Part shown: piece after piece, positions 24,920-44,494 of the stretch | Numbering within the stretch: the first letter of the stretch is position 1 | How the letters are laid out: each line of letters starts with the position of its first letter | NCBI GenBank assembly: GCA_027491155.1 | Contig: JAIXWR010000022.1 | Coordinates: 1 to 64,000 of the forward strand | Direction: 5' to 3' | DNA length: 64,000 nucleotides | Origin: Verrucomicrobiaceae bacterium | GTDB taxonomy: Bacteria > Verrucomicrobiota > Verrucomicrobiia > Verrucomicrobiales > Akkermansiaceae | Notes under the pieces: generated by a model | The model's database searches: none | Told to the model about the DNA's origin: nothing | Seen by the model: the letters and a program-made list of their open reading frames with translations, nothing else | Made by a program: the position numbers and the translations under genes

Positions 24920-25407
24920 GCGTGGGATTTCCAGAAGCTGTGGAGGGCCGATTTCTCTTCCGACTCGGCGAGTTTGGCGTTCATGGCGCGGATCCGGTGA
25001 CCGGCCAGGCGGAGCAGCCCCTTCATGAACGAGACCCCGGCGACCGGATCGGCCTCGAAGAATCCTTCAAGCTCCGTCGCCGAGATGCTCCAGATCAGGC
25101 ACTCGCTGCGGGCGATCACCGAAGCGCTCGCGGTGGCGGGGTCGAAGACATTCACCTCGCCGAGCGAATCCCCCGATCCCAGGGTGGCCACCAGCAGGTC
25201 CCTGCCCCCCGCTCCGGCGACCACGTGAAGTAGTCCTGATAGGACGAGGTAAAGGTTTCCCTGCGGCTTGCCTTCCGCGATCAGCACGTCACCGGCATGC
25301 GGCCGGACGAACGAACCGAAGGACGCGAGGAAAGCCCGGTGGGACTCGTCCACCTCGGCGAGGAAGCCGATCGCGGGAAGCTCTGGGAGAGGGGATGAAG
25401 TGCTCAT
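24916..25407 (-). CDS. single-domain cyclic-nucleotide-binding-like protein with degenerate cassette
   Basis: 163 aa from ATG 25407, where domain homology begins; the longer open frame upstream is Arg-rich without family sequence. Beta-roll motifs: GDVLIAEGKPQGNLYLVLSG and GDSLGEVNVFDPATASASV. The phosphate-binding cassette keeps Gly83-Glu84 but the Arg that holds the cyclic phosphate is absent (Ala93 at that position), so canonical cAMP binding is doubtful. There is no HTH, so it is not a transcription factor; the C-terminal helix ends SALHSFWKSHA. It may act as a protein-interaction or membrane-protein regulator together with the coupled DUF3307 protein. Confidence 0.85.
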   Translation of the reverse strand: MSTSSPLPELPAIGFLAEVDESHRAFLASFGSFVRPHAGDVLIAEGKPQGNLYLVLSGLLHVVAGAGGRDLLVATLGSGDSLGEVNVFDPATASASVIARSECLIWSISATELEGFFEADPVAGVSFMKGLLRLAGHRIRAMNAKLAESEEKSALHSFWKSHA

Positions 25408-25795
25408 GATGCGGCGGGGCGAGAGTGCATGGCGGATCTCCCGCCTGCGAGCCGGAAATTTCGAACTGCCAGAATCCGCATGCTCCAAGGCAGGGAAAGC
25501 CCGCCTGCCGGGGCGATTCGACCGCCACGAAGCGCGATCCCGGCACTCCAAGGCACTTATTGAAAGTTTTAGTTCACTTTTTAACCGATATTGCTGTAGT
25601 GGCCCGTTCCTTGGATCTTCCGTGTCCCCCGCCTCCCCACACGCCGTGATGCTGTCCGTGAAAGAAGTGCGCTTCGATTTCACCGCATGCGTCTTGTCCT
25701 TCTGCAAGGACATCCCCGGCTCGTCTTGGCCGGCGGACTGCTCTCGTTGATCTGTCGCCGCAACCCCAGGAATCTAACAGAAAACTCCCGACCCC
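25408..25795. other. 388-bp divergent intergenic region
   Basis: Separates the minus-strand CNBD gene from the PATRb-repeat gene. It contains an AT-rich patch at about 25555-25600, the likely promoter zone, and a perfect hairpin TGTCCTT-CTGC-AAGGACA at 25695-25712. No gene or clear -35/-10 pair is seen. Confidence 0.5.
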
Positions 25796-28700: not shown

Positions 28701-30211
28701 TGGCCGGCGGTCTCGGCGACGGGACCAGCGCCTCGCTGGTCAAGACGGGCGAAGGCAACCTTGCCCTCGGCGGCACGGGCACCTGGACCGGCGGCACCCA
28801 GGTGCTCCGCGGCACCCTGACGGCGGCCTCCAACAGCGCGCTCGGAAGCTCCGGCGTCGTGGTCGGAACCGGAGCGTACGCCTCATCGCTGATGCTCGCC
28901 AACCGCTCTGACATCGGGAACCCGGTGACGGTCTCCGGAGCGGGCACCGGAGCGGTGACCCTCGGCGCCGACGCCAGCGGCTTCGGATTGAATGCCGCGA
29001 CCTACACGGGGCTCGTCACGTTCCAACGTCCGGCCACCCTCTCCAGCGAGGTACCCGGCGACCGCCTGGCCTTCGAAGGCAGGCTCACGGGAGCGGTGGG
29101 CACCCTGACCATCGATGGTGGTTCGCGCACCACCTTCTCGTCGATCCTCAACGACTTCGTCGGCGACATCGTGATCACCGGCAGCGGCACCGTCCTGCAA
29201 GCCAGCGTGGCCTCCGCGGCAGAAACCATCCCCAATGCCAGCAGCGTCACGGTGGATGCCGGCGCGGTCTTCCAGCTCGCCTCGTTCACCGGCGCGGAAA
29301 CGATCAACGGGCTGTCGGGCACCGGCGAGGTGCGCTCATTCCGCGATGCCAACCCGGGCAACACCTTCGGCGGTTCCCTGGTGATCGGCGCGGCCAACGG
29401 CGGCGGCAGCTTCGCGGGATCGATCGCCGACGGGAACCGTTCGCTCTCACTCACCAAGACCGGCAGCGGCACCCAGTTGCTCTCCGGTCTCAACACCTAC
29501 ACGGGAAACACCGTGGTGGACGGCGGCACCCTCCACCTTCAGGAAGACGGGGTGCTGACCTTCCGGGTCACCAACACCTCGAGCAACACCCTGACCGGAT
29601 CGGGCACGGTGCTGCTCGACGGCAGCTTTGCCATCAACGTCGCGGCGGTCACCAACCCCGGAACCTGGCAGCTCGAGAATGCGGCCAGCCTGCCCGGTGC
29701 CTACGGGGCGACCTTCCAGGTGACCACTCCGGCGGGTGTTCCCTGGATCGATGATGGCGGCGAAAGCTGGAGCTTCGCCTCGGGCAGCCTCGAGTTCACC
29801 TTAGACGAAACCACCGGAACCCTGACGGCCGTGCAAGGCGGGTTCGCGTCGTGGATCGCCGGTTTCGACCTCGCCGCGGCAGACCAGGATCCCGGCGACG
29901 ACCCCGATCTCGACGGCGTAAGCAACCTGATCGAGTATGCCCTCGCAGGCCGCAGCCCCAAGACCGCGGAAGGCGCGCCCGGCACCTTCGCCGGCGGCAC
30001 CCTGAGCTTCAACAAGCGTCCGGAAGCGGCGGCGGATCCCAAGATCAGCTACCAGATCGAGGAGTCCGACGACCTCGGCAACCTCGACACCTGGACCGAG
30101 GCGACCGCCGCGCCGCCGACTTATACCAACGACGCCAACGTCGTCTCCTACACCCTCCCCACCGGCAAGACCAAGACCTTCGCCCGGCTGGTGGTCATCC
30201 AGCTTCCCTGA
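25796..30211 (+). CDS. autotransporter-associated beta-strand (PATRb) repeat protein
   Basis: 1,471 aa with signal peptide (MKARPLIDRAAGVAPVLLTL region). Repeated Gly/Thr/Ser-rich beta strands with typical PATRb signatures: VVKTGTGQLTLG, FVKAGAGTQTLTGVNTYTG, LVKTGEGNLALGGTGTWTGG and LTKTGSGTQLLSGLNTYTG, predicting a long right-handed beta-helix. The end has an Asp-rich stretch (DQDPGDDPDLDGVSNLIEYA) and a C-terminal beta domain. No outer-membrane barrel and no PEP-CTERM motif follow, so this is not a classical autotransporter. Its export route beyond Sec is unclear. The PEP-CTERM gene follows after 33 bp. Confidence 0.9.
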   Translation: MKARPLIDRAAGVAPVLLTLCLGARGATVVKSPTGTDLNAGASWGGTAPAASDIATWTGSSLGAALTLGADTGWQGISVTGASSNIDISGAGVLTLGNGGIDLSNATVDLSVSNNIALGADQSWKAASGRTVTSAGTISGPANLTAGSTASAGSFSGYLSASSGSPTTVFPSTSVATITSAGGVMNGGWIGSNTPAGTYHFSNNGTLVTYQLQFYDGDFTKVAKVQMSQSGANVVAHQVYAKYKSGNHLGANFDSPIEDGQPPVGSGGYGVVSTTAVFGSSPSGVVLLSGSNNYTGSTTVSSGTLRAGSGSAFGVDSAVSLSGTPGATLDLNGFNNSIGSLSGAGTVSLANATLTLGSNNTSPAAFTGVFTGPGTVVKTGTGQLTLGMGAATDFTQLVVRSGSASTTVTNLGTSSTIVLGDASTGSSDVQFTTTGASITRPITVTSNGTGAAVIGSTGGAGNTQVTGQITLERAVTITAGGTDRTSWTGKITGNVGTLTFAGGNRTVLESASGLNDFTGSVVVTGTGTVLQIGAGTLSGENIPDSSDVTVEAGTFLKLANVGTCIETINGLNGAGIVRRHEGVGGTQTLVVGAANGSGTFSGTLQSGAGPLAFVKAGAGTQTLTGVNTYTGPTTISGGILKLGTGGSIANTSSVTVAAGATFDAADTGFTLGAGKTLAAGDSAPGDDVTGAIVSEGILRPGGNGGLGTITGITSLALGGTMDWEHSAGSTASDSIAINGTLTISPGFTFNPAGIGVPSSGTRSYTVVGGLATPLTPGDIANLPTLPPNYTWDTSDPVALKITHVQPGASLTWKGTVSGDWDLTDANWTGGSGVFQSGDLCTFDDSATGTTILEILSDLEPGSVVVNNSTAKNYTIGSAGGFGVAGTCSLIKTGNGLLTLTAYNIHSGGTILSDGVIAFDLNGISTAGPLTMDGGTLRWHGFNSQDISAVIDMVNGKTATFDTNDNDVALAGGLGDGTSASLVKTGEGNLALGGTGTWTGGTQVLRGTLTAASNSALGSSGVVVGTGAYASSLMLANRSDIGNPVTVSGAGTGAVTLGADASGFGLNAATYTGLVTFQRPATLSSEVPGDRLAFEGRLTGAVGTLTIDGGSRTTFSSILNDFVGDIVITGSGTVLQASVASAAETIPNASSVTVDAGAVFQLASFTGAETINGLSGTGEVRSFRDANPGNTFGGSLVIGAANGGGSFAGSIADGNRSLSLTKTGSGTQLLSGLNTYTGNTVVDGGTLHLQEDGVLTFRVTNTSSNTLTGSGTVLLDGSFAINVAAVTNPGTWQLENAASLPGAYGATFQVTTPAGVPWIDDGGESWSFASGSLEFTLDETTGTLTAVQGGFASWIAGFDLAAADQDPGDDPDLDGVSNLIEYALAGRSPKTAEGAPGTFAGGTLSFNKRPEAAADPKISYQIEESDDLGNLDTWTEATAAPPTYTNDANVVSYTLPTGKTKTFARLVVIQLP

Positions 30212-30244
30212 TCGAAACACTCCATTTCGAACGACCGATCCAAC

Positions 30245-30928
30245 ATGAAACGAGCCCTCCTCCTGTCTCCCGTCGTGGCGGCATCCGCACACGCGGCAAC
30301 GCTGATGATCAACCCGACGGCGATCACCTACACGAATACCCCGAACCAGGAGCTCACCGGGCTCAACCTCGACAACGAGATCAACATCATCAACGGGAAC
30401 GGTCTCAGCGCGACACCCACCGTGGGCAACGTGACGTCGGTGACGCATGATTCGGTGTCCTTTTCATCGCCGGGCAATGCCTGGGCCACAATCGACCCCG
30501 GACCGGGCGCAGGCGACTTCTTCGCCGAAGGCGGGAATGCCCCGATGTTCACCATCGACCTCGGGGGCACCTACAGCGTCACCGACTTCGTGATCTGGGG
30601 CTACCACTTCGGCTCCAACAACGGGAACCACCCGAAGAACATCACCCTCGAGTTCTCCACCAACGGAGGCGCCAGTTACGGCGCGCCGCTCGGAATCCTC
30701 GTGCCGAACGCCGGAGCCTTCAACAGCGCGGACGTGGTGAACTTCTCCGCCCGGGATGCCAACTTCGTCCGACTTACGGTCACCGACAATTACTTCGGGA
30801 CCTACAGCGGAGGCGATCGCGTGGGCATCTCGGAGATCCGCTTCATGGGCGACGCGATTCCCGAGCCCTCGTCCTCCCTCCTCGGCGCCGTCGGGGTCCT
30901 CGCCCTTCTTCGCCGGCGGAAGAGGTAA
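30245..30928 (+). CDS. PEP-CTERM sorting-domain protein with discoidin-like domain
   Basis: 227 aa. Signal peptide MKRALLLSPVVAASAHAATL, then a single beta-sandwich with features of the F5/8-type (discoidin) fold: FTIDLGGTYSVTDFVIWG, NHPKNITLEFSTNGGASYG and FVRLTVTDNYF ending GDRVGISEIRFMG. The C-terminus is IPEPSSSLLGAVGVLALLRR plus a basic tail, the PEP-CTERM signal recognised by exosortase. No exosortase gene is in the window. Likely exported to the surface or matrix and co-transcribed with the PATRb gene 33 bp upstream. Confidence 0.92.
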   Translation: MKRALLLSPVVAASAHAATLMINPTAITYTNTPNQELTGLNLDNEINIINGNGLSATPTVGNVTSVTHDSVSFSSPGNAWATIDPGPGAGDFFAEGGNAPMFTIDLGGTYSVTDFVIWGYHFGSNNGNHPKNITLEFSTNGGASYGAPLGILVPNAGAFNSADVVNFSARDANFVRLTVTDNYFGTYSGGDRVGISEIRFMGDAIPEPSSSLLGAVGVLALLRRRKR

Positions 30929-30955: not shown

Positions 30956-32770
30956 TCAGTTCCGCAGCGCCGAGATCTCGATGTTTGCCTGCCGCAGGCG
31001 GTCGCAGAGCTGGAGGGCGATCTCGTTGAGGATCTTCGCCTTCAAGCCCGGCAGCAGCTTGCCGATGTCCTCGAAGAGCGGGCGCTGGATCACGCGGCAT
31101 TCCACGTCCGCGATGGCCACCACGTCGGCGGATCGGGGCGAGGCGTCGAGGAAGGCCAGCTCGCCGAAGCTCATGCCCGCCGAGAAGACATCGAGCCGCT
31201 GGTAGCGGTTGTTCCCGAGGTTCAGCCGGACTTCCACGCTGCCGGCGGTCAGCACGAAGAGTTCGTCCGCACGGGAGCCGGTCTGGATGATGGTTTCGCC
31301 GGGCTTGTAGGTCTTGACCTCCATCCGCTCGTTGAGGAGCTGCAACTCCGCGGGGTCGCAGTTCGCGAAGAGCGTGCAGCCCGCCAGCAGGACGGGCGGC
31401 GGCTGCTGGACATGGTCGGGCAGCACCTTGGCCAGCACCGCGTTCTCGCAGGATTCCAATGCCGCGTCCTCGCTGAAGAAGAGCACGTCGTCGGGGATCC
31501 CTGAAGCCGCGATCAACTTCCCGAGCCGGCCCGTGTGGCAACAAACCAGGCGCACGCCGGCCCCGGCGAGCTGCTGCCATACCTCGTGCAGCATCCGCAG
31601 GCTGACCGCGTCCACGGAGAACACGTAGCGGAAGTTCAGGATGATGTGCTGGCAGTAGGCCGCCTGCTTGACCAGCTCGCGGATGACCGGCTCGAAGGTG
31701 GAGAACAGCAAGGGCCCCTGCAGTTCCATCACCCGGATCCGGTCGCCGTAGCGCCTTAGCGCGTGGAAGGTGCTCGCCGGCAAACGGCGGCGGGAGTTCA
31801 CCTGGGCGGCGTTGTAGCTCCGGCGCAAGGCCGGCTGCGGGACCGCGCTCGGGTTGAACATGTGCAGCGAGAGCTCCCGGGCGAGATCCATGCAGACGCG
31901 GATTCCGCGGACGCTGTTGCCCTGCTCGTCGAGTGGCGGCGAGAACACCCCGATTCCGAGCTGGCCGGGAAGCACCGCGAGGATACCGCCCCCCACCCCG
32001 CTCTTCGCCGGCAGGCCGACGCGGTAAATCCACTCGCCCGACCAGTCGTACATGCCGGAACTGGCCATCACCGCCAGCACGTTGTCGACATACTCGTGGG
32101 CGATCGCCCGCTCGCCGGTGATCGGGTTGACTCCCTGGTTCGCGAGGGTCGCCCCCATCACCGCCAGGTCGGCGCAGGTGACGCGCAGCGAGCACTGCTG
32201 GAAATAAGTCTCCAGGATGTCGTGCGGATCCTCGTCGATGATCCCGAAGTTCCGCAGCATCCAGCCGATCGCCCGGTTGCGGTGGCCGGTCTCGCTTTCG
32301 GAACGGTAGATCTCCTGGTCAATGTCGAGTTGGCCGCCGGCGCAGCGGGAAAGGTAGGCCGTGATCCGCTCGATCCGCGACTGCCCGCCGGAGGCGAGGA
32401 TCTGACCGCAGGTGGCGATTGCCCCGGCGTTGATCATCGGGTTGAAGGGCGCGCCGCTGCCCGCCTTGAGGCTGATCGCGTTGAAGGCATCGCCCGAAGG
32501 CTCGACCCCGACCCGGGAAAGCACGTGTTCTTCCCCCCGGTCCTCGAGCGCGAGTCCGTAGGAAAGGGCCTTGGAGATCGACTGGATGGTGAACTTCTGC
32601 CGGGTGTCCCCCACCTCGTAGAGATGGCCGTCGCGGGTCGCGATGCAGATGCCGAAGTGGTCGGGATTGGCGTGGGAGAGCTCCGGAATGTAATCGGCCA
32701 CCTTGCCGTCGCGAAGGGCGGCATAGCGGTCGTGCAGGATCTTGAGAACCTGGGAAACAGGGGATTTCAT
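30956..32770 (-). CDS. glsA: glutaminase A fused to STAS and cyclic-nucleotide-binding domains
   Basis: 604 aa; plain GlsA is about 310. Residues 1-310 are a beta-lactamase-like glutaminase converting glutamine to glutamate and ammonia: catalytic Ser64 and Lys67 in TIQSISKALS, then NPMINAGAI, SETGHRNRAIGW and LPAKSGVGGGILAVLPG. Residues about 345-445 are a STAS domain, but the usual phosphorylatable DSSG is DAVS (387-390), so phospho-switching is unlikely. Residues about 465-590 form a cyclic-nucleotide-binding domain with an intact cassette: FGELAF (Glu537) and Arg546 in ASPRSADV. cAMP control of glutaminase activity is therefore plausible, but inferred. It is the last gene of a minus-strand series that also contains an adenylate cyclase, 85 bp after the giant protein. 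Confidence 0.93.
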   Translation of the reverse strand: MKSPVSQVLKILHDRYAALRDGKVADYIPELSHANPDHFGICIATRDGHLYEVGDTRQKFTIQSISKALSYGLALEDRGEEHVLSRVGVEPSGDAFNAISLKAGSGAPFNPMINAGAIATCGQILASGGQSRIERITAYLSRCAGGQLDIDQEIYRSESETGHRNRAIGWMLRNFGIIDEDPHDILETYFQQCSLRVTCADLAVMGATLANQGVNPITGERAIAHEYVDNVLAVMASSGMYDWSGEWIYRVGLPAKSGVGGGILAVLPGQLGIGVFSPPLDEQGNSVRGIRVCMDLARELSLHMFNPSAVPQPALRRSYNAAQVNSRRRLPASTFHALRRYGDRIRVMELQGPLLFSTFEPVIRELVKQAAYCQHIILNFRYVFSVDAVSLRMLHEVWQQLAGAGVRLVCCHTGRLGKLIAASGIPDDVLFFSEDAALESCENAVLAKVLPDHVQQPPPVLLAGCTLFANCDPAELQLLNERMEVKTYKPGETIIQTGSRADELFVLTAGSVEVRLNLGNNRYQRLDVFSAGMSFGELAFLDASPRSADVVAIADVECRVIQRPLFEDIGKLLPGLKAKILNEIALQLCDRLRQANIEISALRN

Positions 32771-32855: not shown

Positions 32856-35800
32856 TCAAGGCCCCGTCGCTTCGGCGGTCACACGGTAGAATCCTTGTGT
32901 CATACTCGCGTCGGGATCGGTCAAAGTCAGGTTCCCGTCGGCCGTCAAGGGGCCCGACGTGATGACATCGGTCCATGGGCCGCTGGCGAGATTGGCGCTC
33001 CGCTGGAGGGTGTACGTCCGCCCCGTCCTGCCCGACACCACTGCCGAGAAAGCGGTGCCGCTCCGTTCGACCGAAATCACCCGGAACACGTCCGCCGGAT
33101 CGAGCGGATCAGTCCCGGCCGAATACTCGTCGAGGTTCGAGCTGCCATCGCCGTCCGGATCCTCGCCGTCGGCCGCGGTGCCCGCATTCGAGGTGGATCC
33201 GAAGTTCTCGACGCGCCAGGAGGCGACCCCTGAAATCTGGGGCACGTAGGTGATGATGAGGGTGGTCAGGTTGTTCGCCAGGACCTTGACCGTCTGCTGG
33301 GGAATCGCCTGGAAGCCGGCGATCTCCCGGAACTGGACGACGTAGTCGCCGGGGGTGAGGTTGTTCTTCCGGGTGCCCGAAGCAAGGAAGCTGGAATCCG
33401 TGCCGAGCTTCCAAAGCGCCCCGGCGGTCCGGGCTTCGGCAGGCTCCAGGATCACCGTCAGCGACCCCTTGGTGGACGTGGTGGAAACGGCGGTGTAGCT
33501 GGTTTGCGAGATACCGCCGCTGTTGTTGTTGTTGCCCGTGTTGGCGGTGGTCTCCGCGCGGTTGAAGAGGTCGATCACGCCGCCGTCGATCACCCGGTAG
33601 AGGTCGTTGGCATTCGTTCCGCCGAGATAAATCGCCACCGGGTAGTAGCTGCCGCCGTCGCGCTGGATCGAGAGCGGTCCTCCCTTCATCCCGTTCAGAC
33701 CCTGGATGGCGGTCGTCCCGAACACGGCGGGTGAAAGCGCGGTGAAGGAACCCGTGGCCGGCCGGGTCGATTGCATCCGGCCGAAGTTCGACGTCGAACT
33801 TCCGCCCTGCACCGGATAAGCGGTCAGAACCTTTCGTGCGGCCGCGTCCAGCAACGGCGAGTCCGCGGTGTCACCGGCGAGGAAGCCCGAGTAACCGCCG
33901 CGTCCGGCATCGCCGAGGAAGTAAAGTGCCGCGGCATTGAGCCCCTGGGCCTCGATGGAGAGACTGCCCGGAGTTTGCTCCGATTCCCGCTGCGCCGCAT
34001 ACCCGTCGAAGACGTAGAAGCCCCGCGGAACCTGCGGCTTGGGCTCGTGGACTTCCCGGTCGCGCTGGAACATCCACTGGACACCCGGGATCTGCGAAAG
34101 GGTCACCTCGTCGAACACGGACTGGGCCACCGTGGCGACGACCCGCGGCTTGACCACGAACCCGCTGTGCGATCCGGCATCGGAACGGACCTGGCCGACG
34201 TAGGCATAGGGCAGGTTGCGGGTGGTCGAGATCGACTCGTAGGACAAGACCCTGAGCGAGCTCGACGGGACATCGAGGTCCGGATTGTAGGCGAAAGCGG
34301 CGGTTCTCAGCTCGCCGGGCGCCACCACGAGCGTGGCCGGAGGAGGCGCGTTCAGGCCCTGGGCCGCCTTGAAGTTCACCAGATAGCTGCCGGGCATCAG
34401 GCCGGTGATGCTGGTCCCGGAATCCCGCCAAACCGACTCGCCGGCCAAGCGCCATTGCACGCGGGACGAGGTGGGAGTGGCCGCCACCCGGCTGGCCGGC
34501 TCGAGGAACACCTGCAGGCCGGAATTCCCCGGCACCGCGGATTGGAAATACTCGCGCTCCAGGACCAGGGTCGGCGCGCCGCTGATCACCCCGACCAATT
34601 CGCGGCCGGGCTGGAGGTAGCCCGCCACGGGCTGGAACTCGATCTCGCGGTCGCCGGTCGTCATGCCGCTGGCAATCGCCCCGGAATCCCGCCACTCGAT
34701 CTCGCCCACGAAGCGCCACTTGCCGGTCCCGGCAGGCAGCAGGTTGACCTGAATCTGGCCCTGGCGCTCGATGACATCGAGCTCCCGGGGGAACTTCTGA
34801 AACAGGCCGACCAAGGCATCGCTCGCGAAGGTCCTCACCAGTCCGGTGCCCGACGACGAGGGATCATCGACCCGCGAGGCCACGGTCCGGTAATGGTAGG
34901 TGATCCCCGCCTGCAGGTTGTCGAGGTCGGCGCGGACCGCGACCTCCGCATCCCCGCTCACCGTGCCTTCGATCGCCCGGATGCGGTTGGGGAAGTTCAC
35001 GCCGTCGGTGCCATACTCGAAGAAGACGTCGACCGCCGAACCCCGCGCACGGACCGAACCGTTGACCCGGACCACGCTGGTGCTCAGCGGGCTGGCGCCG
35101 CCGGTGGTGGCCTGCGGGGCAAGGAACCCGGTGGAGAAGGTCTGGTCCTCCCCTTCGGTGGTGCCGAAGCTGTTGAAGGCGACGAGCCGGAAATGGTAGG
35201 TGCGGCCCGCGAGCAAACCGGATAGCTGCTGCGTGACGAGGGCCGCGTCCATCCCGCTGCCGATGCCCCGCGCAGGGGTCGAATTCCCGTAGTCCGGCGT
35301 CAGGCCGTAATCGAACCGGACAAAGGTGGTCCCTCCCTGGGGATTGGCCGTTCCCTGGAGCAAGGCGGACGAGGGCGTCACGCCGAGGGCCGCGAGCGTG
35401 ACCACCTCCGGCGCGGCGACAGGTGTGCCGCTGCCGCCGTTGGCCTGCCCGGGGATGAAGATCACCTCTTCGCCATAGGCGACTCCCGCGCTGCTCACCC
35501 CCACCAGACGGTAGCGGTAAGCGGTGCCCTCCAGCAGTCCCGAGACCGTCGCCTCGACGTCGATCACGCTGGTGCCGCCCAGATTCTCCTGCGGCGGTGT
35601 GCTTTGACCGAATGGAACCGGGGCATCGAGCTCGCCGTATTCGAAGTAGACCGTGGTCGGCGTCCCGTTCGGATCCACGGCACCGATGAGCCGGACCCCG
35701 CCTCCGGCGAGATCGCTGGCCTGACCCGTGGCCACCAGCGGCGGAGCCTTCGGGGTGACGAAACTCATGGTGCCGCCGAAGATCGTCCCCGCGCCCGTCG

Positions 35801-38800
35801 TGATGCCGATCCGGTAATGATAGGTCGTTTCGGGAGCCAGTCCGGAGAGCGGGGATTCGATCGCGACCGGCGAGGTTCCGCCGATTTCCTGTCCCGGCGT
35901 GGCGCTGCCGAATGCCGTGCTGGTGCCGTATTGGAAGAACACCGTGCCCGGGCCGTTCGGCGTCGCGGTGCCGCGGAGCACCGCGCTGGAATCCGTGATC
36001 CCGGTCGCCGCGGCGGTCGCCACCGATGGCGGCACCGAACGCGTCACCGTCAGCGTGTAGCGCTTGGTCGTGGTGCCGTTGCCCGCGGTCACGTCGATGT
36101 TGATGAGGTTGGAGCCCACCGCGAGTTCGACAGGTTCGCTGGCGGCATCCAGGGGGACGAGGACGCCGGCGACACGCACGGATGATTGGGCGATCTCCGC
36201 GAGCGCGGTCACCTGGATCGCCGAGACGTCATTCGGCACGCTCAGGAAATAAGCCGTGACCCCGAGGTTGAAGGCGGGGGAAACCGGCCCCTCGCTGGTG
36301 AAGAGCCCGAGCAGGTTGGCATTGGAAGAAGGCAACACCGTGATCGCGGTGGCGCTGCTGTCCGCAAAGCCGCTGATGCTGGATGCGCGTACCCAGTAGG
36401 AGGTGTTGGCGGTGGCAGGCGGCGTGTTGAACACGTTGGACGTCGCACCCGGAACCGGGACGTCGGTGTTTCCACTAGGACCTTCGTACCACTGGTAATC
36501 GGGCGCGGGCAGGCCGGTCGCCTCCGCGGCGAGTGCGGTGCTCGTGCCATACTGCAGCGACCGCGCGCTCACCGGTTGCAAGGTGAACACGGGCGGCGTG
36601 CCGGTGACCGTGAGGGTGAGATCCGCCGTGGCGCTGGCACCGCGGGTCGTGACCGTCAGCGGGATGGTGTAGACACCGGGATTCTGCGGGATGCCGAGGA
36701 TCGTCCCGGTCGCCTTCTCGATCGAAAGGCCGGCAGGCAATCCGGTGGCCGACCACTCCGTGCCGGGACCGCTTTCGCTCGAGGCGGGAACGTAGGTCAT
36801 CGGCACCAGGTAAGGCCGCGTCGCCGCCTGCGCCGCGATCACCGGCAACGAGGTGATCGCGAGTTTCCGGCTGACCGCGCCGCCGGAATTGCTGGCACCG
36901 ATGTCCACGGTGAAAACACCGGCCTCACCCGGAGCGCCCGAGATCAGGCCGCTTCCGGGATCGAAGGTCAGGTCCGCGGGAAGAACGCCGCTCAGGGTGA
37001 AGAGCTGCGGCGAGTTCTCCGCCACGATCTGGTAGCTGAAGGGCTCCCCGCGAACCGCCGACGCGGTTCCGGCGGAGGTGATCACCGGCGGGGTCACGGT
37101 GGCCTCGTAGGTGAACGTGACCGTGGTCAAGAGGTCGGAAGCGAGACTGACGGCCAGCGGGGACGGCGGCACGAAGCCTTCGAGCACCGGGAAGCGGACG
37201 GTGTAATCGCCCGGTGCCAGATCGTCCGACTGTGTGCCGGACGGCAGATAGGGCGACGCGGTGCCAAGCCGCCAGCCGGCACCCGCGGCGCGGGCGGAGG
37301 CGGGCTCGATGACGACCTTCAGCGCGGACAGCCCGGGCTTGTCGTAGGCCTCCGTGGCGATGCCCGTCTGCGATCCGCCGTTCACGCCCACCCCGTCGCC
37401 GGAGCTGGCATCGGCGAAGGCGATCAGCTCGACCACCTCGCTGTCGAGGGCCCGGACCACGGTCTGGCCGGTGCCGCCAAGATAGATAGCCGCCGGATAA
37501 TAGGCGCCGTTTTCCGCCTGCACGCAAAGCGGTGCCCCGGAAGCGCCCCCGCTGGAACGGATGCCGGCGCTGGTGTAGGTGCGGCCGAATGCCTTGGTGA
37601 ACACCACGTTCGACGGAGTGGTGGCATGCAGGCGGTCCAGGTCGGCTTCGGGGATGCCGTCGACCGGATAGCCAACCAGGGTCTTGAGCGCGCTGGAATC
37701 CAGGAACTCGTTGACGGACGCGTCGCTGGCGAGGTAGCCGCTGAATCCGCCTCGGCCGATATCCTCCAGGAAGAAGAGCGTCGCCGCATCGAGGTTCTGG
37801 GACTCGGGCGAGGACTCGCCGGGCGAATTGTCGAGGATCCGCTGCGCCGCGTAGCCGGTCATCAGGTAGCTGCCGCGCGGGGTCCGGGGAACCGGATCAT
37901 GCACGCCGCGGTCGCGCTGGAACAGCCACTGCAGGCCGGTCGTGATCGCCAGCGTGCCGTCGTCGAACACCACGTGGCCGACGGTCGCGACCACCCGCGG
38001 GCGGACCACGAAGCCGGTGCCGGATCCGGCATCGCCGCGGATCTGTCCGACGAAGGCGTTGGGCAGGCTGGTGTCGCCGGCGAAGGAATCGAAGGGCACC
38101 ATCGCAGGGGCCTCGCCCACCGGATCGTCGGCGATGAAATAGGTGATCGTGATGGTGGAGGTCGTCCCGTCGTCGACACTGGCGGTCGCCGGCGCGGGCG
38201 TGCTGCGGCCTTCGACCGGCTTGCATTCGATCACGTAGCTACCGGCCGCAAGACCGCTCACCGGCTCGCCGCTCAGCTTCCAGTCGGCCTCCCCTTCCCC
38301 GAAGAAGCGCCAGCGGGCCAGCGCCACGTTCTCGGTCAGATCCTGGGGCTTGAGGAAGACGACCAGGCTGCCGTTCCCCGCATCCGCCGTCGGCTGGTAG
38401 GTCCGCACCAGGGACGCCGGGGCGGGGCTGCTGGTGATGGCCACCGCTTCATTTGCCGGCCTGACGAAACCCGGCACCGGCCGGTATTCCACCACGCGGT
38501 CGCCGGTGGTCAGGCCGGTGGCCGCCACTCCGGACTCCCTCCAGAATTGTTCACCGCTGAAACGCCAGCCGGAACCTTCGACCGCCGGATCGCCGAGCGT
38601 GATGGTCAGCGATCCCTGCCGCTCGCCTGCCGGCACGGCCGGCGGGTACTGCTGGATCAATCCGGAGAGCGACGCGACCTCGAACGACCGGGTCTCCCCG
38701 ATCCCCTGCCCGTTCGCACCGGTCGCCCGGACGCGGAAAAAGTAGGTCACGCCCTGCGCCAGATCCGTCAGATCGGCGCTCACGCCGGTGCTCTGGTCGC

Positions 38801-40958
38801 CACTCACTTCCGCCGGCGTGCCGCGGACACTGTCGAAGGAAATCCCGTCCGTTCCGTAATCGATCCACACCTCGGCCACATCGCCGCGAGCCCGGACCTC
38901 GCCATCGATCCTCACGCTGGTGGTCGTGAGCACCGTCGAATTCCCGGTCACGGCCGTGGGCGGCGGGAAGCCGGTGGTGAAACTCGCCCCCTCGCCAAAC
39001 GTCGTGCCGAGATCGTTGGAGGCGGTGAGACGGTAATAATAGGTCGTGCCGGGCAGGAGTCCCTGGAGTGGAATCGCCACGTCGCCGGGAGTCGTGCCGT
39101 TACCGACGCCCTGCGGGGCGGTGTTCCTGCCGTATGTGGGGGTGGTGCCGTATTCGAACTCGACCAGCGTCGTTCCGCCGTTGGGATTGACCGATCCCAC
39201 CAGCACGGCGGACTCGGTGGCCACCGCCGCGGCCTCACCCGTGGTCACCGCGGGAGCTGCGGTCGGCGCCCCGCTGCCGGATCCGCCGCCCTCCTGCACG
39301 GAGAACAGGACGTCGTTGCCGAAGACGGTTCCCGCGCTGTTGCTCGCGACCAGGCGGTAGTGATAGCTGGCGTTGGGGATGAGGGAGAGATTCGGTGCCT
39401 GGACGCCCACGGTGCTGGTGCCCGCAGGCACCTTCTGGACCGGCGTGGATTGGCCGTAGGCGGTGGTGAGACCGTATTCGAAATAGACCGAAGCCTGGAC
39501 GCCGCTCGGGTTCACCGCGCCGACGAGCGTTGCGGTCGATGCCGTGACGTTGGCAGGCGCACCGGTCGCGGCCACCGGAGGATTCGGCAGTGTCGTGAAC
39601 TGCCGGGTGTTCCCGAAGAGGACGCCGCCCGCATTGAAGAGCACCGCGCGGAAATGATAGGTCGTGGCACCCTTCAGCCCGGAAATGCCGGCCGCAAAGG
39701 CGCGCGACGTATTGCCGGAAACGTCTCGATCCGGGGTCCGGCTGCCGAAATCCGCTGTGGGGCCGTACTCGAAATAAACCGTGGACACCCCGTTCGGGTT
39801 CACGTCGCCGTTCAAGGTGGCACGCGAGGCGTCGATCACCACCGCCGGGGCGGTCGAGACGACGGCCGCCGAAGCCCGGTTGACATTGACCGTGTAGGTC
39901 CGGGTGGTGATCCCGTCCTGCGCGCGGACCAGCGTGGTGATCAGGTTCGGCCCCACGCTCAGGGCGATCGGGCCGCTGGCGGTTCCCGAGGCCACGGCGG
40001 CGCCGTTGACCGTCGCGGTGGCCCCTTCTCCCGCCAGGGTGGGAGTCACGGTGATCGAGCTCACGGTGTTCGGCACCTGGGCCGAGTAGCTGCCGGTCAG
40101 CGGGCTGAAGGCGGGCGAAAGGCTGGCCGTGCCGACCGAAAGCGCGGAGAGGCTGGCATTCGAGGACGGCAGGGGTGTCACCACCCGGATGGATCCCGTG
40201 CCGGTGATCGCGCCGCCGCTGTTGGTTGCGTCGTAAAGTCCGTCGGGTCGCGCGACGCCGGCCAGCACCAGGGCGCCGACGGTGTCGCTGCCGGTGAAGT
40301 CGAGATCGAGGGTGGCCCCCGCCGCGATGCTCAGCACGGACTTGTCGTTGCCCGTGTTCGGCATGGAAAGCCGAAGGGTGCCGCCTTGGACGGTCGTGTT
40401 GCCGCGAAAGCTGTTGGCACCGCTCATCGCGAGCACGCCGGTTCCGGACTTGGTAAGCCCGCCGGTTCCGGTCACCGCCCCGGTGATGGTGACGAGGCCG
40501 CTGCCGGTCCCGCCGAAGGATAGATCCGCCGCAAGGCTGACGGGAACGCCGATCGAGACCGCCGCATCGCCGTCCTGGAGAATTGAAGGAAGCGCCGCCC
40601 CGTTGGTGACAAACTGGATCGTGTTCCCCGCCACGGTGACCTCCGCGCCGGCGAGGCGGAGGAGATTCAAGCGGAATCCCGCATTCAGGTCCTGCTGGAC
40701 GGCGTAAGTGCCCGCAGCCGCGAACTCGAGCGAGTAGTCGGCCTGGCCGGCGGCCACCGGCGCGCTGTCGGGCGCTTGCTCGGAAGTCCACTTCGAAGCG
40801 TCGCTCCAGTTCCCGTCGACCGCCGTGCTCCACGAGAACACCGTGGAGGCTCGTCCTGAAGCCAGCGAAAGCATCAGGGCCGTGAAAGCGATGATCCCGG
40901 ACCGGGTGATCCGGAGGAGGGAATCCGGGGTCATGAGGTGAACGTTGGGGGGATTCAT
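32856..40958 (-). CDS. 2,700-aa secreted protein with tandem trypsin-like and pseudo-trypsin modules
   Basis: Signal peptide near residues 9-38, then a PATRb-like strand region (GLTKSGTGVLAMSG). Two similar halves of about 1,000 residues follow. Each has a cadherin-like beta-sandwich (SLSPAFSPLTGSYSAQVPN; GPVSPAFNLGVTAYFLSVPN), FN3-like modules (LNGDVNPNGVSTVYFEYG; LVGAVNPSGVQASVYFEYG) and a trypsin-fold module. In the first, His995 (VATVGHVVFDD), Asp1057 (NLDAATLFFL) and Ser1140 (GGASGAPL) form a complete triad. In the second the same positions are Gln2279, Asn2341 and Lys2425, so it cannot be a serine protease. PEGA-like and putative-Ig modules lie between them. The C-terminus has an Asp-rich calcium-binding stretch (DGEDPDGDGSSNLDEY). 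The start is 4 bp after the upstream anchored-protein gene. Confidence 0.88.
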   Translation of the reverse strand: MNPPNVHLMTPDSLLRITRSGIIAFTALMLSLASGRASTVFSWSTAVDGNWSDASKWTSEQAPDSAPVAAGQADYSLEFAAAGTYAVQQDLNAGFRLNLLRLAGAEVTVAGNTIQFVTNGAALPSILQDGDAAVSIGVPVSLAADLSFGGTGSGLVTITGAVTGTGGLTKSGTGVLAMSGANSFRGNTTVQGGTLRLSMPNTGNDKSVLSIAAGATLDLDFTGSDTVGALVLAGVARPDGLYDATNSGGAITGTGSIRVVTPLPSSNASLSALSVGTASLSPAFSPLTGSYSAQVPNTVSSITVTPTLAGEGATATVNGAAVASGTASGPIALSVGPNLITTLVRAQDGITTRTYTVNVNRASAAVVSTAPAVVIDASRATLNGDVNPNGVSTVYFEYGPTADFGSRTPDRDVSGNTSRAFAAGISGLKGATTYHFRAVLFNAGGVLFGNTRQFTTLPNPPVAATGAPANVTASTATLVGAVNPSGVQASVYFEYGLTTAYGQSTPVQKVPAGTSTVGVQAPNLSLIPNASYHYRLVASNSAGTVFGNDVLFSVQEGGGSGSGAPTAAPAVTTGEAAAVATESAVLVGSVNPNGGTTLVEFEYGTTPTYGRNTAPQGVGNGTTPGDVAIPLQGLLPGTTYYYRLTASNDLGTTFGEGASFTTGFPPPTAVTGNSTVLTTTSVRIDGEVRARGDVAEVWIDYGTDGISFDSVRGTPAEVSGDQSTGVSADLTDLAQGVTYFFRVRATGANGQGIGETRSFEVASLSGLIQQYPPAVPAGERQGSLTITLGDPAVEGSGWRFSGEQFWRESGVAATGLTTGDRVVEYRPVPGFVRPANEAVAITSSPAPASLVRTYQPTADAGNGSLVVFLKPQDLTENVALARWRFFGEGEADWKLSGEPVSGLAAGSYVIECKPVEGRSTPAPATASVDDGTTSTITITYFIADDPVGEAPAMVPFDSFAGDTSLPNAFVGQIRGDAGSGTGFVVRPRVVATVGHVVFDDGTLAITTGLQWLFQRDRGVHDPVPRTPRGSYLMTGYAAQRILDNSPGESSPESQNLDAATLFFLEDIGRGGFSGYLASDASVNEFLDSSALKTLVGYPVDGIPEADLDRLHATTPSNVVFTKAFGRTYTSAGIRSSGGASGAPLCVQAENGAYYPAAIYLGGTGQTVVRALDSEVVELIAFADASSGDGVGVNGGSQTGIATEAYDKPGLSALKVVIEPASARAAGAGWRLGTASPYLPSGTQSDDLAPGDYTVRFPVLEGFVPPSPLAVSLASDLLTTVTFTYEATVTPPVITSAGTASAVRGEPFSYQIVAENSPQLFTLSGVLPADLTFDPGSGLISGAPGEAGVFTVDIGASNSGGAVSRKLAITSLPVIAAQAATRPYLVPMTYVPASSESGPGTEWSATGLPAGLSIEKATGTILGIPQNPGVYTIPLTVTTRGASATADLTLTVTGTPPVFTLQPVSARSLQYGTSTALAAEATGLPAPDYQWYEGPSGNTDVPVPGATSNVFNTPPATANTSYWVRASSISGFADSSATAITVLPSSNANLLGLFTSEGPVSPAFNLGVTAYFLSVPNDVSAIQVTALAEIAQSSVRVAGVLVPLDAASEPVELAVGSNLINIDVTAGNGTTTKRYTLTVTRSVPPSVATAAATGITDSSAVLRGTATPNGPGTVFFQYGTSTAFGSATPGQEIGGTSPVAIESPLSGLAPETTYHYRIGITTGAGTIFGGTMSFVTPKAPPLVATGQASDLAGGGVRLIGAVDPNGTPTTVYFEYGELDAPVPFGQSTPPQENLGGTSVIDVEATVSGLLEGTAYRYRLVGVSSAGVAYGEEVIFIPGQANGGSGTPVAAPEVVTLAALGVTPSSALLQGTANPQGGTTFVRFDYGLTPDYGNSTPARGIGSGMDAALVTQQLSGLLAGRTYHFRLVAFNSFGTTEGEDQTFSTGFLAPQATTGGASPLSTSVVRVNGSVRARGSAVDVFFEYGTDGVNFPNRIRAIEGTVSGDAEVAVRADLDNLQAGITYHYRTVASRVDDPSSSGTGLVRTFASDALVGLFQKFPRELDVIERQGQIQVNLLPAGTGKWRFVGEIEWRDSGAIASGMTTGDREIEFQPVAGYLQPGRELVGVISGAPTLVLEREYFQSAVPGNSGLQVFLEPASRVAATPTSSRVQWRLAGESVWRDSGTSITGLMPGSYLVNFKAAQGLNAPPPATLVVAPGELRTAAFAYNPDLDVPSSSLRVLSYESISTTRNLPYAYVGQVRSDAGSHSGFVVKPRVVATVAQSVFDEVTLSQIPGVQWMFQRDREVHEPKPQVPRGFYVFDGYAAQRESEQTPGSLSIEAQGLNAAALYFLGDAGRGGYSGFLAGDTADSPLLDAAARKVLTAYPVQGGSSTSNFGRMQSTRPATGSFTALSPAVFGTTAIQGLNGMKGGPLSIQRDGGSYYPVAIYLGGTNANDLYRVIDGGVIDLFNRAETTANTGNNNNSGGISQTSYTAVSTTSTKGSLTVILEPAEARTAGALWKLGTDSSFLASGTRKNNLTPGDYVVQFREIAGFQAIPQQTVKVLANNLTTLIITYVPQISGVASWRVENFGSTSNAGTAADGEDPDGDGSSNLDEYSAGTDPLDPADVFRVISVERSGTAFSAVVSGRTGRTYTLQRSANLASGPWTDVITSGPLTADGNLTLTDPDASMTQGFYRVTAEATGP

Positions 40959-40962: not shown

Positions 40963-42108
40963 CTATTCTTGGGGCGAAGAGGGTGAGAGAGGATCGCGGG
41001 CGCCGACGAAGCCTTCGAGGCGTGAAATCATGCCGCGGAGATGCTCCGCGACCGGTTCGAACTCCGGATCGGCCGCCCAGGCCTTGATCGTTGCCAGGGC
41101 TTCGCGGTCGTGGGAGGCGAGGTCGTCGCCCGCGGCGGAGGCCTGGACGGTGAGAAGGTTGTTGGAGACGAACTGGTTGTTGTTCGGGTAGATCCCCGCG
41201 AACGATCGCAGTTCGACAGGCGTGCGCGCGGGATCCAGCAGCCAGGCCTTCACCAGCGCCTGCTGGGCGGGATCCCTCACGTCGGCCCGGGCGAACTGCT
41301 GGGCCACCATCTCCGGCCGGCTCTGCTGCAAGGCGGTGTCTTGCGAAAGGCGACCGAGCACCTCGGCCGGCTGGCCTTGCACCAGGCGGTCGAGCGTCAG
41401 GAAACCGGCATGGGCCAGATCCCTGCGGTCCTTGTTGCGGATCAAACCGGACAAAAGCGGCGTGCTGTCGGTGGCACCGATGTGGACCAGCACGTCGAAG
41501 GCGTTCAGGTAGCCGACCGACGGATCCGCCTGCCACGCCGGGTTGGCGATCAGCTCCTCGGTCTTCGCCCTCAGGTAGGAGGCATCCAGGGCCGCCTCGC
41601 CCCGAGCGACGTTCCGGAGCGCGAGCGCCCACTCGTCCGCGGTCGTCGGCGTTTCGAGAATCGAGCGCCCGACCGCTGCCGCCGCCGCCGGGTCCACCGC
41701 CAGCAGGGTATCGAGCAAAAAAGTGCGGAAACTCGGCCATTCGGACAGGCTCCCATCCTTCGCAATTCCGAAAGAAAGTCCGGTTGCACGATCCTTGCCC
41801 CCGTCGAGAAAGCCCTCGATCCGCCGCACCGCCTCGTCTTTCGGCATCGCCAGCAGGGCGGCACGGAGCCCGGCCAGATCCCTCGAAACATCGCTCGCCG
41901 GAGAGTCTTCCGACACCCCGTCGAAAATTTCGGAAATCGTGTCATGCTGGCCTGCCGGAGCGGGATCCGCCTTCCCGGTGTCCGCCGCCTTCGACCCGGA
42001 CGCCCCGGCATCCGCCGGGCCGGCATCCCCGGCCTTCCAAAGTCCGAAGCCAAGCAAGCCTGCGCCCGAGAGGGCCAGAAGGGCCGGGATGGTCTTGATT
42101 CGAGGCAT
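40963..42108 (-). CDS. membrane-anchored helical protein coupled to the giant protease-like protein
   Basis: 381 aa from ATG 42108; the frame is open further up but the upstream part is basic and without family sequence. N-terminal hydrophobic segment KTIPALLALSGAGLLGFGLW, an Ala/Gly/Asp-rich linker, then an all-helical domain (e.g. DLAGLRAALLAMPKDEAVRR; DLAHAGFLTLDRLVQGQPAE). No named family recognised. It ends 4 bp before the start codon of the 2,700-aa protein, so the two are almost certainly translated together. Folding, export or regulatory partner of that protein is a reasonable guess. Its layout (anchor plus helical repeats) recalls the pair at 7365-10372, but it lacks their W-DP-AA signature. 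Confidence 0.78.
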   Translation of the reverse strand: MPRIKTIPALLALSGAGLLGFGLWKAGDAGPADAGASGSKAADTGKADPAPAGQHDTISEIFDGVSEDSPASDVSRDLAGLRAALLAMPKDEAVRRIEGFLDGGKDRATGLSFGIAKDGSLSEWPSFRTFLLDTLLAVDPAAAAAVGRSILETPTTADEWALALRNVARGEAALDASYLRAKTEELIANPAWQADPSVGYLNAFDVLVHIGATDSTPLLSGLIRNKDRRDLAHAGFLTLDRLVQGQPAEVLGRLSQDTALQQSRPEMVAQQFARADVRDPAQQALVKAWLLDPARTPVELRSFAGIYPNNNQFVSNNLLTVQASAAGDDLASHDREALATIKAWAADPEFEPVAEHLRGMISRLEGFVGARDPLSPSSPQE

Positions 42109-42436: not shown

Positions 42437-44494
42437 CTACTTCTCGGTCATCTCGACGATGCCGTCGCGGATCACCTCCCCGGCATCGAGCCGCTTCAGG
42501 AAGAACCGGCTTGGACCGTCCGGCCCGCCCTTGGCGGACTCCGTGGCGAGGAAAAGCTCCCGCGCTTTCGCCGGGTCGTTCGCCGAGAGCGAGGCCTGCG
42601 CCGAGTGGTAGAGCGCGATCCATTCCGGCTCCCCGCCCCCTGGCAGCGGCCCCAACAGCTCGTGGACCACCGTGACTTCACGACGGCCCTTCACTTTCAG
42701 CCGCCCGACCATCCGGGTCAGGAACTCGTCGCCAATCCGCAGCCGGACCTCGTCGCTGACCAGGATGCCGGTGCCGAGGGTCTTGTTGAGCCCCTCCAGC
42801 CGCGCGGCGAGGTTCACCGCGTCGCCGATCATCGTGTAATCGACCCTCCGCGCGCTGCCGATGTTCCCGGCGACGACTTCACCGAGATGCACGCCGATCC
42901 GGGTGTTCAGCGCCACGCCGTCGATCGAGATCTTCTCGGTGTTCCCCAGCTTCCACGCCGCCCGCGCCGCCTTCAGCGCGGCCTGCGGCTCGGCCAGCGG
43001 GGCACCCCACGCGGCGAAGATCGCATCGCCGATGAATTTGATCACCACCCCGTCATCGTCGAAGATGTGGCTGGTGGTCCGCTCGAAGTATTCGTTGAGC
43101 GTGCTCACGATGCGCTCGGGGTCTCCGACCTTCTCGCAGAGGTCGGTGAAGTTCTCGAGGTCGGTGAACATCATCGCCGCCTCGATTTTCTCGCCACCGA
43201 CCCGCATCTTGAAGCCTTCCGCGGTCAGGCGGTCGAGCATCTGCGGCGACAGGTATTTCGCGAAGGCCTCGCGGAGCTGCCGCTGTTCCTCGCCGAGCTT
43301 CGTGCGGAAGAAGCGCTCGATGTAGAAATGCGCCGCAGTGCCCCACCCGAGGGCCACCGGGATCTGCACGAAGGCGGCGATGCTCCACGGGAACCACACC
43401 CCGTCGTGCTGCAGCGACCATGTCCCCGCGGCCAGAAGCCCAAGGATCAGCAGGACCGCCACCAGGATGCCGTGGACCGGCCGCAAACGCGTGAACAGCA
43501 GACCGGCGACCACCCCGGCGACGACAGCCAGCCAGGTGTCGTGCCGCCGGTCGGAGCGGCTCAGCCAGTTGCCCTCGAGCAGGTTCGCCAGCACGGTCGC
43601 CTGCAGTTCCACGCCGCTGGTCGGCGGCAGGTTGCCGCGGATGTCGAGCCGGTGGAAAGGCGTCGAGAAAAGATCGACGCCCAGCGCCGCACCGACGATG
43701 CCGGGCTTCGCGCCGACGACCACGATCTTGTCGCGAAGCAGCCCCGAAGCATCGCCGTTCATCACCTGGTCGGCACCCAGCGACGGGATCGGCGGGCGGG
43801 CGTTCTCGTCCTCGGGATCCGGCGGACGGCCGATGAAGCGGATCCAGCGGGGCTTGAGTCGATCGGCTTCCTCCAGCTTTGCCCCGAGCAAGCTGGCGGC
43901 TTTCCATGTCATCGACGGCTCGTCCTTGGTGCCGGTCATGAGTTCGCGGACCGTGAATTTCTTGTCCCGGATGAAGGCGACCAGACCGAAGTCGTCCGCC
44001 GCCGCCAGCAGTTCGTCGGTCGGCGGGATCAATCTCTCGCCCACCACTCCCGTCTGGCGGATCTCATCGCGGCCGCAGGCGAGCAAGATGGGCCGCAAGG
44101 GCTTGCCGGGGATCGCCATCCCGTTCTCATCCGCGCCGCGGAAACGGATCATCGCCGCGGCGAACTCGCGGTCGACTTCCGGGTCTTCCGAGGGATGCTC
44201 GAAGATCAAGTCGTAGACCACCGCGCGGGCGCCCGCCTCGTTGAGCTTGTCGAGCAGCCTGGCCTGCACCTTGCGCTCGAAGACCTTCCCGTCCGCCTCC
44301 TCCAGATAGACGATCCGCACGTCCTGCGAGTTCTCCTTCGGGTTGAACAGCAGCGGCACGTCGTAGCTGAGCGTGACCACCGAAGCACCGACCCGGAACA
44401 GCGCGAGATAGCCCGCCGCCACCGCAAGCGCCACGCCCACCAGTGCCGTCAGCAACCGGATCGCGCGCTCGTTGTTCCACATCCCCCGCGACAT
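42437..44494 (-). CDS. CHASE2-domain class III adenylate cyclase
   Basis: 685 aa. N-terminal membrane segment (residues about 12-32), extracytoplasmic CHASE2 sensor domain (about 40-320, e.g. IVYLEEADGKVFERK, DKIVVVGAKPG), three membrane segments (about 335-420), then the cyclase domain. Metal-binding Asp445 (MFTDLENFTD) and Asp490 (KFIGDAIFAAWG), the adenine-reading Lys486, and DYTMIGDAVNLAARLEG with Thr, Asn and Arg at the other substrate and transition-state positions indicate an active adenylate cyclase making cAMP. A short C-terminal helical tail follows. It starts 12 bp after the FecR-TPR-barrel gene, so that outer-membrane protein is its likely partner. Possible effectors in the window are the CNBD-glutaminase and, less likely, the CNBD protein at 24916. 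Confidence 0.95.
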   Translation of the reverse strand: MSRGMWNNERAIRLLTALVGVALAVAAGYLALFRVGASVVTLSYDVPLLFNPKENSQDVRIVYLEEADGKVFERKVQARLLDKLNEAGARAVVYDLIFEHPSEDPEVDREFAAAMIRFRGADENGMAIPGKPLRPILLACGRDEIRQTGVVGERLIPPTDELLAAADDFGLVAFIRDKKFTVRELMTGTKDEPSMTWKAASLLGAKLEEADRLKPRWIRFIGRPPDPEDENARPPIPSLGADQVMNGDASGLLRDKIVVVGAKPGIVGAALGVDLFSTPFHRLDIRGNLPPTSGVELQATVLANLLEGNWLSRSDRRHDTWLAVVAGVVAGLLFTRLRPVHGILVAVLLILGLLAAGTWSLQHDGVWFPWSIAAFVQIPVALGWGTAAHFYIERFFRTKLGEEQRQLREAFAKYLSPQMLDRLTAEGFKMRVGGEKIEAAMMFTDLENFTDLCEKVGDPERIVSTLNEYFERTTSHIFDDDGVVIKFIGDAIFAAWGAPLAEPQAALKAARAAWKLGNTEKISIDGVALNTRIGVHLGEVVAGNIGSARRVDYTMIGDAVNLAARLEGLNKTLGTGILVSDEVRLRIGDEFLTRMVGRLKVKGRREVTVVHELLGPLPGGGEPEWIALYHSAQASLSANDPAKARELFLATESAKGGPDGPSRFFLKRLDAGEVIRDGIVEMTEK

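Follow-up and report, generated by a model that had tools for sequence, protein, structure and literature searches.

The window, i.e., the whole 64,000-nucleotide stretch of Verrucomicrobiaceae DNA analysed here, contains an open reading frame (ORF) for a giant protein of 2,700 amino acids (aa) that is predicted to carry two trypsin-fold modules in tandem, the first intact and the second inactivated. Module 1 is a predicted chymotrypsin-fold (S1-type) module with His-Asp-Ser (HDS) in order and is a putative protease. Module 2 is a predicted pseudoprotease: the fold appears to be kept, the HDS triad is gone, and the loss is conserved as one clade. The live-then-dead order of the modules in relatives, together with gene neighbours of outer-membrane type and cyclase type, suggests that the dead copy probably has a working role in the giant other than catalysis; regulation of module 1 by module 2 would be a plausible role.

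The ORF (positions 32856–40958) is read on the minus strand from 40958 to 32856, and all features described below are located on the same strand. The N-terminus (residues 1–40; 40839–40958) is hydrophobic and, by reading of the sequence by eye, resembles an export signal. It is followed by one PATR (autotransporter-type) repeat (residues 168–197; 40368–40457; PF12951, E 5.1e-9; TIGR02601, E 4.8e-9). Alignment of the two halves (BLASTP) showed that a stretch of about 1,030 aa, far larger than the protease module alone, is duplicated. Unit 1 (residues 260–1284; 37107–40181), composed of cadherin-like and FN3-like parts, protease module 1 and beta-rich flanks, and unit 2 (residues 1539–2571; 33246–36344) showed 42% identity over 1,042 columns (715 bits, E 0.0). 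The units are separated by a linker with He_PIG and Ig domains in Pfam (residues 1285–1538; 36345–37106), and the C-terminus (residues 2600–2700; 32859–33161) contains a weak TSP3-type repeat, for which both matches were below cut-off (PF18884, E 0.089; NF042425, E 0.00045). For the whole protein, Pfam listed Cadherin-like twice, domains of fn3, PhoD_N and Pur_ac_phosph_N type, He_PIG, Ig and the single PATR repeat. A protease family was absent from the Pfam listing of the full-length giant, and the sole protease-type entry in NCBIfam was a sub-cut-off match to the fusolisin model over the PATR region. As to a type V autotransporter, the giant has the single PATR repeat, but a C-terminal barrel family was absent at E ≤1 in both Pfam and NCBIfam. 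The giant is probably exported and would be placed at the cell envelope.

Module 1 (residues 955–1185; 37404–38096) contains His995 (codon 37974–37976), Asp1057 (37788–37790) and Ser1140 (37539–37541). In the alignment of the halves, the corresponding places in module 2 (residues 2238–2470; 33549–34247) are occupied by Gln2279 in the place of the catalytic His (codon 34122–34124), Asn2341 in the place of the Asp (33936–33938) and Lys2425 in the place of the nucleophile Ser (33684–33686). The two modules were modelled singly with AlphaFold2, which gave a pLDDT of 91.9 for module 1 and 89.8 for module 2 (pTM 0.89 for each). In Foldseek searches, the first row for module 1 was the Bacillus intermedius glutamyl endopeptidase 1p3c (E 2.0e-10, TMt 0.83), and for module 2 factor XIIa (6b74_B, E 3.3e-10) was followed by 1p3c (E 1.1e-9). 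By VIA-align, 1p3c, which belongs to the V8-like/Trypsin_2 group, was the nearest fold to either module (module 1, Z 25.9, rmsd 2.2, 209 residues aligned; module 2, Z 25.5, rmsd 2.5, 210 aligned); with 15–18% identity to the modules, and glutamyl endopeptidases being small enzymes, this likeness is one of fold only. Matches at the sequence level were weaker. Trypsin_2 of Pfam was matched by 40 of 54 aligned modules at E ≤1 (best 6.4e-9); module 1 of the window scored 14.5 bits (E 0.061), under the cut-off of 27.6, with Trypsin absent from its listing, and the distant relative L102 scored 33.2 bits, above this cut-off. A module profile searched against PDB sequences gave weak matches to 7uxg (YdgD; E 0.012) and, over almost the full length, to 1p3c (E 0.016). 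As no protease family reached the cut-off for the giant in Pfam or NCBIfam, the fold is established by prediction: with weak Trypsin_2 matches and structure prediction as basis, the trypsin fold of the modules is confidently predicted. The original prediction, made from the letters of the window, had given the ORF the right coordinates, here assigned to the minus strand, and had described two similar halves with cadherin-like and FN3-like modules, which agrees with the BLASTP and Pfam results; the six residues that it named were exact, and its proposal of a fold retained in both modules is borne out by the models and the VIA-align results. In module 1, the triad was found within the predicted chymotrypsin fold and aligned with the HDS of relatives, as expected for a proper active site.

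Sequences similar to module 1 were sought in three sets of genomes, the window's genome being included in each count. They were present in 30 of the 260 family genomes (E ≤1e-5) and, in samples of the order and of the phylum, in 23 of 336 and 6 of 337 genomes, respectively (both E ≤1e-8). The nearest named relatives were Luteolibacter marinus, Haloferula sp. and Akkermansiaceae metagenome genomes, so that the window probably derives from this part of the Verrucomicrobiota. Both modules were whole in 11 proteins from ten genomes, among them one without its N-terminus (L028) and one at a contig end (L069). In all 11, the first module had HDS and the second did not, and the distance between the module starts was 1,275–1,294 aa, although the shortest open frame comprised 2,042 aa, its N-terminus being lost at a contig end, and the longest 5,537 aa. 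After removal of contained duplicates, 81 distinct modules were obtained, of which seven partial ones were dropped and 74 counted. All 14 distinct copies in the module-1 clade contained HDS. None of the 13 distinct copies in the module-2 clade did, the catalytic His and Ser being missing in all of them: the His place was occupied by Gln in 12 copies and Glu in one, the Asp place by Asn in 12 and Asp in one, and the Ser place by eight different residues, none of them Ser. Gln and Asn were jointly present in 11 of the 13. Among complete modules other than module-2 copies, 58/61 showed HDS (14/14 in the module-1 clade and 44/47 others), the exceptions being L058 (R-D-E), L059 (S-N-I) and L079 (H-N-S), none of which fell within the module-2 clade when the first tree was built. 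Triad changes elsewhere in the family are thus rare, and the loss in 13/13 module-2 copies compared to HDS in 58/61 others is not explained by chance.

Phylogenetic analysis placed the module-2 copies in a single clade with support of 100/100 (first tree, 56 rows). When nine columns at or beside the triad were removed, the clade was still recovered with 98/99 (second tree, 69 rows), which shows that the grouping is not caused by the lost residues. A joint clade of module-1 and module-2 copies was absent from the best tree and was not rejected (p-AU 0.119); the tandem may have originated by duplication within the gene or by the joining of two related giants. The first tree was built without L033, L035, L038, L039, L043, L045, L046, L047 and L048, which are second fetches of rows that it already contained, without L037, which is distinct and close to L036, and without the partial L075 and L085. 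From the second tree, the long branches L055, L056, L058 and L059, the second fetches L098–L101, L113 and L138, the broken L144, and L148, which shares its contig with L037, were also left out.

Pairwise comparisons by the NG86 method showed dN well under dS in both modules, with dN/dS of about 0.11–0.39 for module 2 (in the 13 pairs listed); only the sign was used, since dS was about 0.6 to 2.1, with some pairs close to saturation or beyond it. Module 2 was also found to have conserved residues of its own. In module-1 numbering, Lys (for Arg) at 986, Phe at 1033 and Arg at 1181 were specific to module 2 and present in 13/13 copies, and Gln at 995, Asn at 1057 and Met at 1139 in 12/13. Gly2423, Gly2426 and Gly2427, which flank the lost serine, were kept in all 13 copies, as were Gly2475, Asn2477, Gly2481 and Gly2482 in the tail after the domain. 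A triad elsewhere in module 2 was looked for, and no conserved histidine column was found (best column 7/13). These fixed residues and the lack of a conserved histidine indicate that module 2 is one old, retained pseudoprotease. Thus, the sequence comparisons support module 2 as an inactivated protease fold maintained by selection, as had been proposed on the basis of the retained fold, and the order of an active followed by an inactive module, which was to be looked for in orthologues, was kept in every protein with both modules whole.

The preferred explanation, to which we give about an even chance, is an envelope-sensing model in which an exported giant cuts with module 1, docks or regulates with module 2 and is coupled to CHASE2 signalling. 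The giant would stand at the cell envelope, where module 1 would act as a chymotrypsin-type endopeptidase on surface or incoming protein. Module 2, with its fold kept and the usual cutting mechanism lost, would serve for docking or regulation instead of catalysis, by holding a peptide, a partner or module 1. The proteolysis or the binding would be sensed by a pair of proteins encoded nearby, a FecR-TPR-barrel protein and a CHASE2 cyclase, and this pair would change the level of a cyclic nucleotide, to be read by neighbouring cyclic-nucleotide-binding proteins.

Module 2 could also be a binding or adhesion domain independent of module 1, e.g., a receptor for a surface ligand, with the tandem only recording its origin. 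This is a tentative possibility of lesser probability, consistent with the position of module 2 inside a protein of Ig, FN3 and cadherin-like domains, with its conservation of residues outside the active site and with the approximately 1,285 aa between module starts, which would allow the modules to work separately. It is at odds with the finding that the modules keep company. L029, L067 and L074, the three rows of the module-1 clade whose own contig has no module 2, all run off contig ends, and in genomes G162 and G183 module 2 is carried on a second contig; this company of module-1-clade proteins with module 2 suggests a joint function. The contig end of L074 is visible in L033. Modules outside both clades were single per open frame within the stretches fetched, and several single-module giants per genome were found in G334 and G336. 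With 44/47 of these other modules containing HDS, the wider family evidently does without the pseudoprotease, which counts against the envelope-sensing model.

It is rather improbable that module 2 serves as a structural spacer that lacks a specific function, its fold being kept because an unfolded domain would harm a long protein. Such a role fits with the faster divergence of module 2, which is likewise counted against the envelope-sensing model: among the 11 proteins (55 pairs), identity averaged 64.7% in module 1 but only 56.7% in module 2, which was the lower of the two in 51/55 pairs. A spacer role also fits with the mean column entropy, which was 1.11 bits in module 2 compared to 0.91 bits in module 1, and with the variation at the serine place, where eight letters occur in 13 sequences. 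However, the fixed Lys, Phe and Arg found only in module 2 and the joint presence of Gln and Asn in 11/13 copies seem to go beyond the needs of a generic fold. That module 2 has kept or gained another enzymatic activity through different residues is very improbable: conserved Ser, Thr, Lys and Asp are available (Ser2265, Lys2270, Ser2357 and Lys2376 in 13/13 copies), but a histidine is conserved in no column and the nucleophile place is free. Least credible is that module 2 is in decay, its triad having been lost independently from lineage to lineage. In favour of this, one in-frame TGA interrupting module 2 in the close relative G010 (72% complete; the open frame around the broken module starts only at contig base 816) could be cited, which also counts against the envelope-sensing model; against it are the single clade, the shared His-to-Gln and Asp-to-Asn changes (12/13 each) and dN well below dS.

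The neighbourhood on which the coupling in the envelope-sensing model is based consists, in order on the same strand, of genes for a FecR-TPR-beta-barrel outer-membrane-type protein (44507–48121; PF04773, E 4.4e-10; TPR_2, E 3.4e-17; PF00593, E 1.1e-6), a CHASE2 adenylate/guanylate cyclase (42437–44494; PF05226, E 7.6e-25; PF00211, E 1.1e-23), a 381-aa protein with a hydrophobic N-terminus as read from the sequence (40963–42108), the giant, and a glutaminase-STAS-cyclic-nucleotide-binding protein (30956–32770). The gaps are 12 bp between the barrel protein and the cyclase, 4 bp between the 381-aa gene and the giant, and 85 bp between the giant and the glutaminase gene. A small cyclic-nucleotide-binding protein is encoded at 24916–25410, and in five close relatives its counterpart adjoins the glutaminase gene. 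Homologues of the 381-aa protein flank 8 of the 11 two-module proteins (the window, G007, G008, G009, G015, G026 twice, and G230); in G012 and G184 the homologue is on a separate contig from the giant, and in G143, where the contig with the giant comprises 9,880 bases, none was found. A CHASE2 cyclase was detected near 9/11 and a FecR-TPR-barrel protein near 8/11 two-module giants, the window included. The glutaminase protein directly follows the giant in the window, G007, G008, G009, G012 and G015, as well as the module-2 fragments of G010 and G162, and on G026 contig 13 it is located on the opposite side of the gene group. FecR-TPR and/or CHASE2 homologues were also found alongside the single-module paralogues L057 and L061–L064. 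Gene order varies, the giant being divergent from the other group genes in G271 and the 381-aa homologue following the giant in G230, and this variation is counted against the envelope-sensing model. Thus, the giant is a member of a conserved gene group with the FecR-TPR-barrel protein, the CHASE2 cyclase and the 381-aa protein, and in close relatives the group also includes cyclic-nucleotide-binding proteins. A search for a Crp-type output regulator detected no DNA-binding family in the two cyclic-nucleotide-binding proteins scanned (Pfam, E 0.01), and the barrel protein gave no match in a plasmid collection, whose scope excludes chromosomes. With the gene neighbourhood as sole basis, we infer a link of the giant to cyclic-nucleotide signalling.

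A more specific form of the envelope-sensing model, which we consider doubtful, is a protease-gated cassette leading from envelope to cytoplasm, in which the active and the dead module would jointly read a protein signal, with the pseudoprotease as peptide sensor. The giant would hand the signal via a membrane-anchored 381-aa partner and the FecR-TPR-barrel protein to the CHASE2 cyclase, and the cyclic nucleotide would then switch the neighbouring glutaminase-STAS-cyclic-nucleotide-binding protein. The presence of intact and inactivated copies in one chain with near-fixed spacing (11 proteins), together with single-module relatives with intact triads as natural controls, makes the role of the pseudoprotease a testable question, and the neighbourhood suggests a tie between cell-surface proteolysis and CHASE2 signalling.

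Pairs of active proteases and pseudoproteases are already known. In Clostridioides difficile, CspBA is described as a single gene in which active CspB is fused to the pseudoprotease CspA, and the pseudoproteases CspA and CspC as taking part in a signalling process whose end point is the activity of CspB (PMC12880746). CspBA resembles the giant in that an active protease and its inactive counterpart are encoded together in a single gene, but it is subtilisin-like, its parts are separated by YabG and it functions in spore germination, whereas the giant combines a predicted chymotrypsin fold, an Ig/FN3-type architecture, a separation of the module starts by about 1,285 aa and a cyclic-nucleotide-signalling neighbourhood. 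In Magnetospirillum, MamO is described as a degenerate trypsin-like homologue that non-catalytically promotes proteolysis by MamE, and duplication with loss of this type as having arisen three times (PMC4794232). MamE and MamO are similar to modules 1 and 2 in being a trypsin-like active protease and its degenerate homologue; they differ in being encoded by two individual HtrA-type genes of the magnetosome island, compared to one polypeptide with glutamyl endopeptidase as nearest fold by VIA-align. MamO/MamE and CspA/CspB are thus precedents for a dead protease that serves a live one. Besides, the Sinorhizobium meliloti barrel protein NsrA is reported to work with the CHASE2 cyclases CyaD1, CyaD2 and CyaK in sensing a signal of protein nature (PMC7529298, PMC13001267). 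As described, the NsrA/CHASE2 system and a Campylobacterota CHASE2-FecR-TPR cluster share with the window locus an outer-membrane barrel protein and a CHASE2 cyclase, a likeness of gene types and descriptions, and the cited descriptions do not name a protease, a pseudoprotease or a 381-aa partner as components. Among the papers listed by searches of open-licence literature, judged by titles and abstract openings, neither this protein nor a Verrucomicrobia CHASE2/FecR locus was found, and the same is true of the fold, the setting and the neighbourhood as a set.

The 381-aa gene highlights a protein family that often adjoins trypsin-like proteases. Searches of Pfam and NCBIfam gave no match to the protein at E 0.01, and its best match in PDB had an E-value of 0.35 (the queries took the upstream end at 42120, i.e., 385 residues; the first ATG is at 42108). 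Among the 260 genomes of the family, the 381-aa family was present in 35, the module in 30 and both in 27, giving a Fisher p of 2.4e-26 with kinship ignored. Homologues were found to adjoin five of six distant module matches (G185, G133, G043, G056 and G369, not G522). Nearer homologues fetched apart from giants (G002, G017, G192, G184, G164, G271 and G223) gave a mixed picture, in a neighbourhood survey that leaves out G147, G163 and G251. In G002, a FecR-TPR gene lies between the homologue and the giant, and in G271 both are in one stretch. The giant of G017 is about 60 kb from the homologue, around which no protease was present in 19 kb, and both observations are counted against the envelope-sensing model. 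No protease was seen in G192, where little DNA downstream of the homologue was covered, or on the 13.9-kb contig of G223, and in G184 and G164 the contigs end. All five distant homologues examined (G011, G029, G179, G196 and G015:C20) directly adjoin a small trypsin-like protease with HDS. Of five small proteases scanned, three showed a P-domain above cut-off (L100, L102 and L105, not L098 and L103). The neighbourhoods suggest that a protease with a neighbour of the 381-aa type is probably the earlier organisation. The window's lineage has the protease inside the giant, in two copies, one of them dead.

Altered triads were also found elsewhere in the family. A relative's genome, G008, encodes a further giant protein (L058:1587-9494) that contains Calx-beta domains; its protease module has R-D-E at the triad places and apparently was inactivated separately. 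In another genome, G192 (L079), protease modules were found in two adjacent ORFs, one with the complete His-Asp-Ser triad and the other with H-N-S, the latter possibly representing an early stage in module inactivation. The order-level relatives G334 and G336 (L138-L143) contained several separate giants per genome with one His-Asp-Ser module each, some of them encoded by adjacent genes, and an additional broken protease module (L144) was present in G336.

The 381-aa protein with a hydrophobic N-terminus (40963-42108, minus strand) gave no match in Pfam and NCBIfam searches. Across the order, trypsin-like proteases were often found next to its relatives, and the protein is a candidate protease partner family.

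Directly after the giant, a single fusion protein (30956-32770, minus strand) combines glutaminase, STAS and cyclic-nucleotide-binding domains, and the glutaminase may thus be under cyclic-nucleotide control. In G007, G008, G009, G012 and G015 the fusion gene lies directly next to the small cyclic-nucleotide-binding gene, and in the window the two (the latter at 24916-25410, minus strand) are separated by opposite-strand genes for a PATR-repeat protein and a PEP-CTERM protein (25796-30928, plus strand), apparently an insertion into the giant's gene group. An FG-GAP_2 repeat protein with 13 FG-GAP_2 stretches and a HYDIN-type Ig domain is encoded at 21418-24555 (plus strand).
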